Shown here one piece after another: positions 2,748-7,438 of a stretch of DNA of 64,000 bases. This stretch comes from Paramacrobiotus metropolitanus (taxonomy: Eukaryota; Tardigrada; Eutardigrada; Parachela; Macrobiotidae), in the NCBI RefSeq assembly GCF_019649055.1, contig NW_026570223.1:1550001-1614000 (forward strand), written 5' to 3'. The notes beneath the pieces are model-generated. The model did not search any database. It saw only the letters and a list, made by a program, of their open reading frames with translations, and was not told the DNA's origin. Both the position numbers and the translations under genes were made by a program. Numbering within the stretch: position 1 is the first letter of the stretch; every line of letters begins with the position of its first letter.

Positions 2748-5700
2748 ATGAAAAATTTGCAGTGTTCTGCTGTTTTACTGTTGTGCATATTAATTTATAA
2801 CAAATGTGTGGGACTGCGGAATTTTACCACGAGACCAGTCGCTTCGCTTGTAATCCGACCCAATGCGCATCAACCTAATCATCGCATATTAATGCCGCAC
2901 ATTGGCTCAAATCACGATGGATTAATTCAGGGGAAAGCCATTAATACCGAACCCTTTTATCTGGAATGGCCAGAACCGAGAAGAATTTATTTCGATTTGG
3001 ACAGTTCTTACAGTAACTGTGTTTTAATAAATTACAGTTCGGCGTCAAATAACAAGTGTATTAAGTTTAAAAAATACAGATAAGCAGTACTGTATTTCTA
3101 TAAGAAGCCGTTTCGCACATCATATGTTTCTTGCCGTTGATCAACACTTCACGGACGTGATGTGCGTTTTGTAGCTCAGAATGAACGAGTAAATATAATC
3201 CAAGCCATGGGACAAATTAGTGCGGATACGAAAGGATGTGTTCGTTTTGTACCGTATAATCCGTCAAATCAGACAGACTTCATCAGTATTACACCGCTGG
3301 AAGATGCCGGGTAAAAGACTGTCAAATTAACAATTACGTACTATTATGCACACCGACTCAAAACCAATATTATAAATTACTGCAACGCCTATTGCTGTCA
3401 GCCTCAAGTGCCGGCAACGCTAGTGTCATTTAATTTACATTTACAATAGCAAGTGGTTGTAGGTCAATGCGTTACGGGTGTTGGTCCTTTCCTGGTCGGG
3501 TGTTCAATCAAAACGGCCGCGGACAGCTGCTAGGGCTAACAAGAGGCCCAGCGGGCTGCATTAATAATCAACGGGAACTGATGAAAACCCTCGTCCACGT
3601 ACTGGGCTTTCGAATGGTGCCCAATCGGCCGGATCGAGATGCATATATTACCATCAACTATGAAAATATGGCCAGAGGTACTTTGGAAGGGTAGTTAGTA
3701 TTCACTTTATTAAATATTACGGGATAAATAATTCATAAGTCATGGTTCGTTTTTTTCGGCTTGCCGGTTGATAATAATCACACTCTATCCACAAAGTGCT
3801 TTATAGGTATAACGTATCTACCTTAATTTCATACGTACCGGTTAATTTTTGCAGAATGGCGATCAATCGATCCTTATAGAAAATATTCCGAATCCCAAGT
3901 TATTTATCGCAGTTTGCCGTTCGATTTTAACTCCATTACGTTCCACGTTCCTACGAAGTTTTCACGGGATGGCACCTCACCGGTTTACACAATAAACGAC
4001 AACTCCAAAACTGCTGGGGCACAACCGCGGTTGAGTTTCTGGGACTGCGTGGGAATATCGGCTATCTATAAATGCAACCCCAACTTCTGTCCAGATGGTA
4101 AGCGAAAAGCAACATTTGACTAAAAATTCTGTAAATGTACGAGTCAGTGTTACAATACAATAATGATCATTGCGGGAATTTCAGCCTACGGCGATATGGA
4201 CCCCAATCAGCTGCCCACCAACCGGCCACCGATAACCGGAGGCGGTACAACCCAACCCACACCGCCAACGCGCCCCACCCGACCCACAGTACCCGACATC
4301 CCGACACCGCCCACGCAACCGACCATCCCGACGTTCCCCACACCACCCCAACCGGATACCACCCGTCCCACAAGGCCGACCCCGCCCGACAGCGGAACCA
4401 CGCCCACTTCCCCGGACTTCCCCGATCCCGAGGAGTTTACGCTACCCACCACGACCGAGGAGCCGGAGACCACCACCGAAGATCCCAATGCAATCACGAC
4501 GCCTTTTACCTTCGTTACGTTTACGAGGCCGTCGCGGACGCGCCCGCCACCACGCCCCATTACAACCGCCAGCACAACGAACGTCAATCCGCCTATTAAT
4601 CCACCGTTCCCGAATAATCTTAACATCCCTACCATCAGTAAGTAAATGCTGCATGTGCAGAGTGAAGAAATAAAAACCTAGTTCATGGTTGCCCCATTGT
4701 AGTGGAGGTTTTTGCAGACTTGCAATCACTTACGAATTGCACATTTCGTACGTTTACGACATTAAAATACTTAATTAAATCACTTGCGCCTACGTACGGA
4801 CACAGTGGTACGTACTACATAATACGAGTACGCACTCGTATAATCAGGTATTTATGATTTGTTAGATCCGACAACCAATTCGGTGCTAACAGCGATCTGC
4901 CGACCAACATTCCGGGTGGATGCTGCAGTGTTTTCCGAGAACGGGAAAATCTATCTGTTTTCCGGAGATCGCTTCTGGACCATGGATATACGCGGTGATG
5001 TTATTGATGCAGGAATTAACATTTTAGACAGCTTTGACGGCCGTGTACAGCCTCCCATACAAGCCGCATGGTCAGATGGAAAACAGACCACACTTGTCGA
5101 CGCGGTAACGTGATTAGTAGACATTATTTTACAGCATGAAACCTATCGTTAAGCGGAACAACTGCTGTGCATTAATTTTATTAGTGACGTAGATCGGAAT
5201 ATTTGTTTTACGATTGCATACAACTTACAAGTAGTCTTTTATCGCAGAGTCGGAAGGAAATTATTGTCCGAAACGAAAGATTCATCAGCATAAACCCCAG
5301 CCTTTTCCCAAAAATCCAGTCGTTAACGGAAGCTTTCTTATATAACTTTACAACTGGCCCTGCTGTTTATTACATTACAAGTACGCAATCATCTGTAAAA
5401 CGTACATCTATTGATTGTTGTACTCGTAAACATCGTACGTAAGTGCAGTTTGTGTTCGTTTTGTCATATTTAGATGACGGTACAGAGATTCAGATTGGTG
5501 CCGACGGACCGTCCAAGAAATTTGCCGAAGTCGCCATGATTGGGCTAGGCCCAAAGATCGACGCTGCATTCACGGTGCCCATGCTGGCTTCACAGATGAT
5601 CGGTCTGTTTTCCGGCAACGATTTTGCTTATGTGGTGCCGTGCACAATGAATATCGCCCAGGACCCCTCACCGTGCTTCCAGTCCTTACCGGTCGGCACG

Positions 5701-5793
5701 TGGCCGGTGCCCTTTAGTAATATGGTCTCTTTTCCACAAGGAAACTGCAGGAGAAGGATACGTCTACGATTCCCGCACTTCCGACAGTTGTAG
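2748..5793 (+). CDS. Inactive astacin-fold protein with Pro/Thr linker and hemopexin domain
   Basis: Eight exons sum exactly to 667 aa: 2748-3012, 3175-3310, 3463-3677, 3855-4097, 4185-4637, 4866-5104, 5248-5380 and 5474-5793. ATG 2748 is chosen because a signal peptide follows at once (MKNLQCSAVLLLCILIY). Residues about 89-286 are an astacin fold: KGCVRFVPYNP, YGCWSFPGRVF, LGF, RPDRDAYITINYENM, SLPFDFNSI, LSFWDCVGISAIYKC. The zinc motif HExxHxxGxxH reads KTLVHVLGFRM, so two of three His ligands and the catalytic Glu are gone. The Met-turn SIMHY reads SITFH, and the propeptide FxGD switch reads IQGK. Residues about 287-437 are a PT/TTE-rich, mucin-like linker. Residues about 438-667 are hemopexin-like (RVDAAVF, GKIYLFSGDRFW, KIDAAFTV), bracketed by ICRP and VVPC cysteines. 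Inference: a secreted binding or matrix pseudoprotease. The last exon end is the least certain. Confidence 0.85.
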
Positions 5794-6000
5794 TTGTAGC
5801 TCTTTTTATATACATTTTGTTGTTTGGGGGTTTATACGGTGATTATTTTGTACGAAATCGTTTTGGAAGGAAGTAATCGGTAAATTTATAACTGCAGTCG
5901 ACAAAGGATTTGAAGGCAAATCTTTGAACCAAAACGTCGCGGAATGTGCCGAGAAGTACAAGCGTATGTACAGCAATAAGCGGCTACTTTGCTAATGCCT

Positions 6001-7438
6001 TCAGGTATAGTTTGAATTATGAGAAAAAATCTCTTCCTTTAGTCGCGCGAAATCATCCTGGTTTAGCCCTCGCTGTTCTAACTCCATCATAACCATAGCG
6101 AAGGTGACAATGGCACCAGCCAACTATCGAGTAAACAAAAACAAGAGCGTAGCAAAAGTCATGAGTGCAATAGCACAATCGTATCTGTACTTAATGTGTT
6201 ATATATTCAAATGTTGCATTTATCAAGTAGATCGCTTACCGATCCTGCAAATGCTCGATCAATCGCGAAAAACCGTCCAGCCGTGAATCCGACTGTGTTC
6301 ATGTGGAACTCATTGATGTAGTACCGCAAAATGTTCTGCTCGTTTTGATCATCAGTTTCACGCAGAAGTCGATGCAAAATTGGCAAAATCCCGTTTGCCT
6401 GTACAAACAAACGTTTCAATTAATTTAATATTTGTGGTGAATGTGAAGCAGTAATGTCATTACCTGCATGTCAACGGCGATACAGCCAATGGTAATAGCA
6501 ATCAGACCAGCAAAAGCTAGGCCAACATTTACCGCTGCGCCCGGGATTTGGTTATTCCCGCTGAGAATTGGTATACCAGCCATGATGCAGAACAGGTAAT
6601 ATAGATATAGAAGAAGGTTAGGAAAGTTCAGCACGGAATCCAGCTGGGCAACGTCTTCAGCAAATGCCGCGTAGTCGATGAGAAACCTCTCCACCACATG
6701 AAAACTCTCTTTTTGTTGGGCATTTTTCTCCAGAGCGCATTTGAATTCGTATACATAAATTGCAGCGATACAAATAAGCAGATTAATTATCATTTGGAAG
6801 CTTGCCAAATAAGCGGCATAGTAACCGTAATGCATGAGCAGAAAAGCTTTTATGCAAAGGAACGAAGCAGGATACCGATATTGCACATCCTTGATTATCC
6901 AAAGAAGTCCTGTACTTTCGGTTTCGTTCCCAGATAGAAACAGTGTGTTAAGTTGTGGGTACACGTAAGAAAACCACAAACCCAGTGCAATAGTATAAAA
7001 AATGACGGTAATACTATAAAGCCATCTTTCGCTACGCTTATTAGAGTAGGCGGCGTCGTAAAGGTCAAATTTTTTTACCACCCTCAAAGTGCCATTGTGT
7101 GAGAAAATGGCGTAGGCACAAGCCATCCACAAGAAACACTTTTGAAAGGCCGTTAGGTATCCGCTGACGATCGTTTGGACCGATTTATTTTCTGAAGGTC
7201 TTGAGGAATACATGTAAGAGTTTAAAATAGTCAGCACCGGTATCAGAGCCATGTAGATAATTACCCACAACCTCCAGATAAGTTTAATGGTACATCTCCA
7301 CAAAGATTCAGGTACTGATTGTTGCCCTTGTGAAAAAGATCCGCATCCACAAATTCGAAGAACATAATAAACAGGAGTCAGGCATAATCTAACATTGCTC
7401 GGCTGGGCACCCATTTCACTGCCGTTCCGGAACCCCAT
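6001..7438 (-). CDS. Gustatory-receptor-like 7TM protein (copy 1)
   Basis: Exons 7438-6464, 6398-6240 and 6123-6001 are joined by phase-0 introns and give 418 aa. Several hydrophobic segments fit a seven-TM receptor with an intracellular N-terminus. The C-terminal signature of the arthropod Gr/Or superfamily is visible: VGFTAGRFFAIDRAFAGS in exon 2, then LAGAIVTFAMVMMEL opening exon 3. That corresponds to the family's IDRxL...TYxxxxxQF, with F for Y and E for Q. A phase-0 intron just before the TY motif is a known hallmark of the superfamily. The extracellular loop carries LSGNETESTGLLWII, shared with its four neighbours. It is the most distal of five tandem paralogues on the same strand. Expected role: a ligand-gated cation channel in chemosensation. 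The ligand is unknown. Confidence 0.85.

Follow-up and report, generated by a model that had tools for sequence, protein, structure and literature searches.

A catalytically dead astacin joined to a hemopexin-like domain, and a clade of dead astacins, in a tardigrade genome

Introduction

Astacin peptidases (MEROPS M12A), which include crayfish astacin, the hatching enzymes, meprins and BMP1/tolloid, carry three family marks according to the abstract of a review: HEXXHXXGXXH, EXXRXDRD with a family-specific Glu, and SIMHY (PMC9848320). Here we describe a gene at positions 2748-5793 (+ strand) of a 64,000-nt stretch of the genome of the tardigrade Paramacrobiotus metropolitanus (hereafter the window), whose product resembles these enzymes in a full-length Pfam match and in RxDRD, but in which HExxHxxGxxH and SIMHY are destroyed and a hemopexin-like domain is appended. 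In the latter respect this window gene resembles the matrixins (matrix metalloproteinases, MMPs; family M10), which combine a metzincin-type domain, a Pro-rich hinge and a C-terminal hemopexin domain, and some of which are membrane-anchored. Its N-terminal domain, however, is astacin rather than M10, and dead. The iRhoms and inactive ADAMs also have a dead active site and a likely regulatory or binding role, but belong to other families.

To our knowledge, pseudoproteases have mostly been described singly or a few at a time. An earlier note on this DNA knew of no standard astacin-linker-hemopexin architecture. We found no description of such a fusion, or of a dead-astacin clade, in the openly accessible literature searched; most subscription journals and the protein databases lay outside this search. 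The main text of the astacin review (PMC9848320) contains 0 occurrences of both 'hemopexin' and 'inactive', and that of a review of inactive metallopeptidases (PMC11266112) mentions astacins once, as metzincins. In PMC11788884, one table lists DUF3377 in MMP24-type genes, paired once with an astacin profile and once with a hemopexin profile; these genes are MMPs.

A dead astacin domain followed by a hemopexin-like domain

We consider it likely that the window gene encodes a secreted, possibly membrane-anchored and catalytically dead astacin, followed by a Pro/Thr-rich linker and a hemopexin-like domain, and that this protein is a member of a dead-astacin clade and works by binding. Its eight exons are separated by seven GT-AG introns (87-228 bp) and join in matching phase to give a single 667-aa open frame with its stop, in agreement with the earlier note. 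The spliced protein, compared with Pfam-A, matched PF01400 (astacin; E 7.7e-24) over residues 74-280, covering profile positions 2-189 of 189, and PF00045 (hemopexin; E 4.6e-6) over residues 455-480. Both scores were far beyond chance, and the two scores for the hemopexin blade (26.9 and 29.5 bits) exceeded the Pfam cut-off of 21.3. No PF00413 (M10) match was obtained for the window protein at E up to 1, and the 15 PF00413 matches that the genome contains all lie outside the window gene. The closest solved structures by sequence were, for the astacin part, choriolytic enzyme (3vtg), proastacin, crayfish astacin, meprins and BMP1, and for the hemopexin part, collagenase-3, metalloelastase and hemopexin, all weak (best E 2.4e-4).

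The active site lies in exon 3 (3463..3677; GCWSFPGR...GCINNQRELMKTLVHVLGFRMVPNRPDRD), which is bounded by GT-AG sites and was aligned with 89 other astacin exons. In place of HExxHxxGxxH it reads KTLVHVLGFRM (3584..3616), such that the first His has become Lys, the catalytic Glu Thr and the third His Met, with only the second His retained. In exon 4 (3855..4097), which carries the remainder of the astacin domain up to YKCNPNFCPD (PF01400 extends to residue 280), the Met-turn SIMHY reads SITFH (3932..3946): Met is replaced by Thr and the zinc Tyr is gone. The ExxRxDRD site reads VPNRPDRD, retaining RxDRD with Val in place of the family Glu, so that RxDRD is all that the window gene keeps of the three published family marks. 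Both losses had been read in the same way in the earlier note, as had retention of the fold, which here extends to the full-length PF01400 match, RxDRD and four cysteines (C110, C140, C166, C279) matched by eye to the astacin fold, at what we take to be the positions of its four fold cysteines.

The other exons complete this layout. Exon 1 (2748..3012, with a GT donor at 3013) has a start Met and, by eye, a signal peptide-like stretch (MKNLQCSAVLLLCILIYNKCVG), followed by ~44 aa where a propeptide is expected and a mature-like start (INTEPFYLEWPEP), with WPEPRR at residue 74. The astacin propeptide carries an Asp switch, FxGD; by eye, exon 1 has no FxGD, and IQGKA stands at residue 60. The earlier note's putative replacement of the switch Asp by Lys depends on its own alignment of this IQGKA. 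Exon 2 (3175..3310; GT-AG, matching phase, PF01400) encodes the part of the astacin domain with KGCVRFVPYN. Exon 5 (4185..4637) is a Pro/Thr-rich linker of ~151 aa in which Pro, Thr and Ser make up 56%. Exon 6 (4866..5104) encodes hemopexin blade 1 (ICRPTFRVDAAVFSENGKIYLFSGDRFW; PF00045, and the match to collagenase-3 in the PDB at E 2.4e-4) together with the part downstream of it, and exon 7 (5248..5380; GT-AG) encodes a hemopexin-like region in which blades are not recognised by sequence. Fusion to a hemopexin domain, as claimed in the earlier note, is thus upheld by a profile match above the cut-off, but for blade 1 only: this was the sole blade detected in the Pfam and PDB searches, and a profile built from this region and that of the paralogue described below found no further blades in the PDB. 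The remainder of the domain is suggested by its length and by the paralogue.

A paralogue with the same architecture

All genome searches were made in this one tardigrade genome (G000; 169.8 Mb, 533 contigs). A second gene of like layout, L001 (G000:C3:2559000-2567000), lies on the same contig, ~1.01 Mb from the window gene and on the opposite strand. It encodes an astacin domain (KTLFHVLGKRS, SVTHH; Pfam E 1.1e-22), a Thr-rich linker and a hemopexin-like region, which scored 20.0 bits, slightly under the 21.3 cut-off. The change of H-E to K-T at its zinc site is the same as in the window gene. The L001 exons found were open and joined at GT-AG sites; its first (signal-peptide) exon was not identified among the open reading frames listed upstream. 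By our reading, six of the seven window-gene introns have an L001 counterpart in the same phase, including those flanking exon 7. The intron between linker and hemopexin region is absent from L001, where the linker and blade 1 form one exon (L001:3424-3038), and an extra intron lies inside blade 1. The two proteins were identical at 94/213 positions in the astacin part and 49/193 in the hemopexin part. A minisatellite of ~153-bp units (L001:5433-6374) was also observed within the 2.6-kb intron of L001.

A clade of dead astacins

Loci for a wider comparison were chosen through searches with the window protein, with two clade members and with PF01400 (at least 164 matches in the genome), and the motif tally of the window gene and L001-L103 covered 90 active-site exons. 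This sample is biased, comprising matches to dead queries plus 22 of the stronger Pfam matches, and its ratio of dead to canonical exons is therefore uninformative about the whole genome. All four H/E/H/H residues were lost in 52 exons, three in 2, two in 2 and one in 3; 25 were canonical and 6 incomplete. We refer to the 54/90 exons with three or four losses as dead. The two with three losses belong to the window gene and L001, the only dead exons to keep the second His. Four pairs of dead exons were > 90% identical in amino acid sequence and may be alleles or recent copies; this leaves 50 distinct dead exons, one of which (L083) falls outside the clade.

Across the 54 dead exons the first His was replaced by Lys (28) or Arg (20), together 48/54; the residue before the third His was Arg in 44, the third His had become Asn (31) or Ser (11), and the family Glu after it was retained in 53/54, the exception being the window gene (Val). 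At the Met-turn, in the next exon, the dead genes had Thr in 42 cases, Arg in 2 (L013, L080) and Met in 1 (L083), with 9 unread, whilst the 25 canonical genes had Met in 21 and Leu in 2, with 2 unread, i.e. Thr in 0/23. The figures for dead genes come from a looser scan, adopted over a first one (40 Thr, 2 Arg, 1 Met) that set aside L046, the repeat views L057, L058 and L060, and the second-locus-only genes L052 and L055 (both Thr), and from which spurious matches were removed (L076 at 828, L068 at 696, L012 at 1109, L026 at 621). The difference between the first-scan counts (Thr 40, Arg 2) and the canonical genes (0/23) gave P = 1.3e-15 in a Fisher test, which ignores relatedness.

Phylogenies built with the diagnostic columns masked recovered the same grouping. 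The tree of the active-site exon, with the four catalytic columns masked, included 79/90 exons (6 incomplete and 5 too gappy, namely L046 and four dead exons, were dropped), and 49/50 dead exons grouped with no canonical exon among them (ultrafast bootstrap, UFBoot, 95). A two-exon tree of 69 of the 72 genes having both exons, in which catalytic and Met-turn columns were masked, placed 41/42 dead genes in one clade (UFBoot 100, branch 0.64). This included the window gene, which carries both clade marks, Lys at the first His and a Thr turn. In the active-site-exon tree the earliest branches were the window gene and L001 (support 85 and 52); the two-exon tree placed them in separate halves (88 and 90), each as the first branch of its half. 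A sister relationship between them was not rejected (approximately unbiased test, P = 0.22; 5000 replicates, which the program deems too few).

Catalytic residues were also lost outside this clade. L083 (C100) lacked all four but retained the Met-turn Met, and L041 (C89) and L082 (C13) had partial losses with Met and Leu, respectively, at the turn. L045 (C53) and L101 (C50) are further astacins of this kind outside the main clade; among the five, the number of catalytic residues lost runs from one to four. Catalysis thus seems to have been lost repeatedly, and the simplest reading would be one loss at the root of the clade and others elsewhere. L046 kept the three zinc His with Glu replaced and had a Thr turn, yet was placed just outside the clade, so a Thr turn alone does not define it. 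This same astacin (HLLMHVLGFGHE), also contained in L104 (G000:C6:235000-243500), had no hemopexin visible downstream, and is possibly an intermediate or a separate loss. Dead astacins were seen in clusters, with seven matches at G000:C175:53748-94610 and, ~250-360 kb away from the window, four at G000:C3:1188917-1298834.

Purifying selection on the dead active-site exon

Rates of non-synonymous (dN) and synonymous (dS) substitution were estimated by the Nei-Gojobori method; the comparison of the window gene with L001 is one between paralogues, not species. In the astacin part (213 codons), dN was 0.53 and dS was saturated (proportion of synonymous differences, pS, 0.757), and differences were most frequent at the third codon position (0.394/0.371/0.634 at positions 1, 2 and 3). 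The active-site exon alone gave a dN of 0.47 and a dS of 1.48. A dN/dS near 1 had been named beforehand as evidence against function; between these two paralogues, the astacin part was not near that value. The hemopexin part was less constrained (proportion of non-synonymous differences, pN, 0.555; pS 0.805; codon positions 0.596, 0.503, 0.741), and its rates carry less weight because its alignment is poor.

For the dead active-site exon, eight pairs of recent duplicates in the clade (dS 0.17-0.55) had dN/dS values of 0.16, 0.02, 0.21, 0.03, 0.15, 0.10, 0.35 and 0.25, three of these pairs sharing members and so not being independent, and a ninth pair (dS 0.04) had zero amino-acid changes. These values indicate that the dead active-site exon is under purifying selection. 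Together with the paralogue of the same layout and the dead clade, this supports the suggestion of the earlier note that the gene encodes a functional, non-enzymatic pseudoenzyme rather than a product of random decay.

Hemopexin and other modules across the genome

A six-frame, exon-by-exon search of the genome found hemopexin together with a dead astacin in the window gene and L001 only. Used as a query, the window hemopexin region retrieved only itself and L001, the latter weakly (E 0.094). Seventeen hemopexin matches were present in the genome: one in the window gene, one in L008 (C12:1613647) and the other 15 at six places near M10 matches. L008 (G000:C12:1611500-1618500) is a hemopexin-like gene with no M10 match listed and no astacin match seen in 7 kb. 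Five of the six M10-associated places had a plain HExxHxxGxxH. The sixth, a hemopexin-linked M10 on C62 (L007:3172-3564, - strand; G000:C62:672671-673063), reads QEIGHALGLAH, with Gln for the first zinc His, and this matrixin may be dead too. A hidden hemopexin domain behind other dead astacins was considered and rejected: a two-sequence hemopexin profile aligned by hhalign with L059, L055 and L009 gave probabilities of 0.1-1.0%, against 0.1-0.7% for shuffled sequences, 36% for the control L008 and 94.5% for one MMP blade.

The stretches found after other clade astacins were Ser/Thr-rich (L052, L057), Thr-rich (L059), Pro-Phe-rich (L060) or Asn-Pro-rich (L010), and in L061 the dead astacin was followed by a CAP domain (PF00188, E 3.6e-8). 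These stretches are adjacent in the DNA and may belong to the same genes; they would fit extracellular modules. For three C26-cluster genes the signal-like start passes, by eye, directly into the mature N-terminus, and the propeptide is therefore seemingly missing there.

Proposed mode of action and alternative explanations

Taken as a whole, the sequence data point to a functional pseudoprotease rather than decay. Clade members retain the astacin fold, by homology, and R-x-D-R-D; the first zinc His is mostly Lys or Arg, the catalytic Glu and third His are lost, and the Met-turn Met has become Thr. We propose that the protein is exported and acts by binding, in that the former substrate cleft, now lacking zinc ligands, would hold a partner, which might be an ex-substrate, an active astacin or a protein of the matrix or cuticle. 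As in matrixins, a further contact surface would be offered by the hemopexin part, and the linker could serve as an O-glycosylated spacer; the protein would then act outside the cell as a scaffold, decoy or inhibitor. The data are compatible with any of these roles, as they are with a structural one.

Several points weigh against this proposal. The evidence is the DNA of one species. The hemopexin part evolves fast (49/193 identical, pN 0.555) and the L001 match falls just below the cut-off, and for these reasons the hemopexin fold is putative. The two hemopexin genes were not recovered as sisters, and the window gene deviates from the clade signature, with Val for the family Glu and Met for Asn/Ser. 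Finally, the other 31 pairs listed, out of 50 with dS < 1.3, gave dN/dS values of 0.37-1.19 at dS >= 0.89 and lend no support to constraint; at 45-65 codons and near-saturated dS we take them as uninformative.

If the clade is as it appears, the protease fold seems to have been reused at large scale for a non-cutting job. About 50 dead astacin genes within a single animal, showing signs of purifying selection and sharing their replacement residues across two separate exons, would be an unusually large case of such reuse. More tentatively, a tardigrade lineage could have made the astacin fold into a large non-enzymatic family of extracellular binding proteins. Its founder may have been a zinc-dead astacin-hemopexin fusion, given that each half of the clade has one of the two fusion genes, the window gene or L001, as its earliest branch, and that among the 54 dead exons read only these two keep the second His. 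Descendants would mostly have lost that His and swapped the C-terminal module, and Lys/Arg may mimic the charge of the metal, such that the cleft holds peptides uncut. We regard this scenario as speculative, and as possible rather than probable.

An alternative of similar standing, possible rather than probable, is that the dead astacin serves only as a stable building block within a structural protein, whether of the cuticle, the egg coat or mucus. The Ser/Thr-rich, Pro-Phe-rich and Asn-Pro-rich stretches behind several clade members and the clustering of copies are consistent with this, but the reworked cleft is itself conserved (Lys/Arg, Arg, Asn/Ser, Glu), which suggests that the cleft has a role. 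Somewhat less plausible is a role in regulating active astacins, whose substrates the dead domain would bind, or with which it would pair, so as to control cutting, cf. iRhoms and rhomboid proteases. The same genome does encode canonical astacins (25 read; at least 164 Pfam matches of all kinds), and pseudoenzymes at times regulate their active cousins (PMC11266112; PMC3149277). Against it, the C-terminal stretches vary across the clade, suggesting several roles.

We think it very unlikely that two adjoining genes, a dead astacin and a hemopexin-like gene, were falsely joined. The exons were joined on genomic sequence, and the linker exon is of low complexity; but L001 has the same order and intron phases, no signal peptide was seen by eye before the hemopexin part, and the single L001 exon holding linker and blade 1 makes separate astacin and hemopexin transcripts unlikely. 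Least credible of all is a decaying pseudogene that lost its active site first and whose open frame is a remnant: the lost zinc motif and Met-turn, the divergence of the hemopexin part and the uncertain 3' end would fit it, but there are eight in-frame exons with usable splice sites and matching open exons in L001, an excess of third-position differences in the astacin part, low dN/dS in all eight recent-duplicate pairs and identical replacement residues recurring in dozens of copies, and a singleton pseudogene was rejected on account of L001, the 54 dead exons and the dN/dS of the duplicates.

The clade would also provide a natural series, from canonical through partly lost to fully lost, in which to follow the dismantling of catalysis within a retained fold. 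PMC9145152 reports 'zinc metalloprotease NAS' as highly expressed in tardigrades, and such 'NAS metalloprotease' labels in tardigrade expression studies may denote non-cutting proteins.

The 3' end and neighbouring genes

Exon 8 as first drawn (5474..5793) ends at a stop at 5793, and the portion after ~5691 or ~5706 may be intron. Whilst the exon chain of the earlier gene model joins in frame, its 3' end is doubtful. The frame to 5793 terminates in an Arg-rich tail, and a different frame reaches 5876, ending in FGRK and a stop (5862-5876). This possible exon 9 (5751..5876; + strand; EKDTSTIPALPTVVVVALFIYILLFGGLYGDYFVRNRFGRK, then stop) contains, by eye, a transmembrane-like stretch (~5787-5834) ahead of FGRK-stop; no such transmembrane-like stretch was seen in L001. 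An intron ending at 5750 would give access to it; its donors at 5692 and 5707 are weak by a home-made score, and no strong donor decides between the two endings. A count over both strands of the window and of 156 kb of loci gave three occurrences of FGRK-stop against ~0.2 expected (hand estimate), namely at 5862-5876, L001:1761 and L010:5295 (a C26 gene). Each is the end of a dead-astacin family gene, and the three genes differ in their C-terminal regions. It was absent from the ten downstream stretches L052-L061 and was rejected as a clade-wide ending. The common ending hints that the true end of the window gene is 5876 rather than 5793. We take FGRK to resemble an amidation signal (Gly-Arg-Lys).

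Upstream of the window gene, a gene at 1039-1993 has a von Willebrand A domain (PF00092, E 2e-17). Downstream, on the - strand (6425-7438), a 337-aa frame without a Pfam match has many hydrophobic stretches; our guess is a multi-pass membrane protein such as a chemoreceptor.

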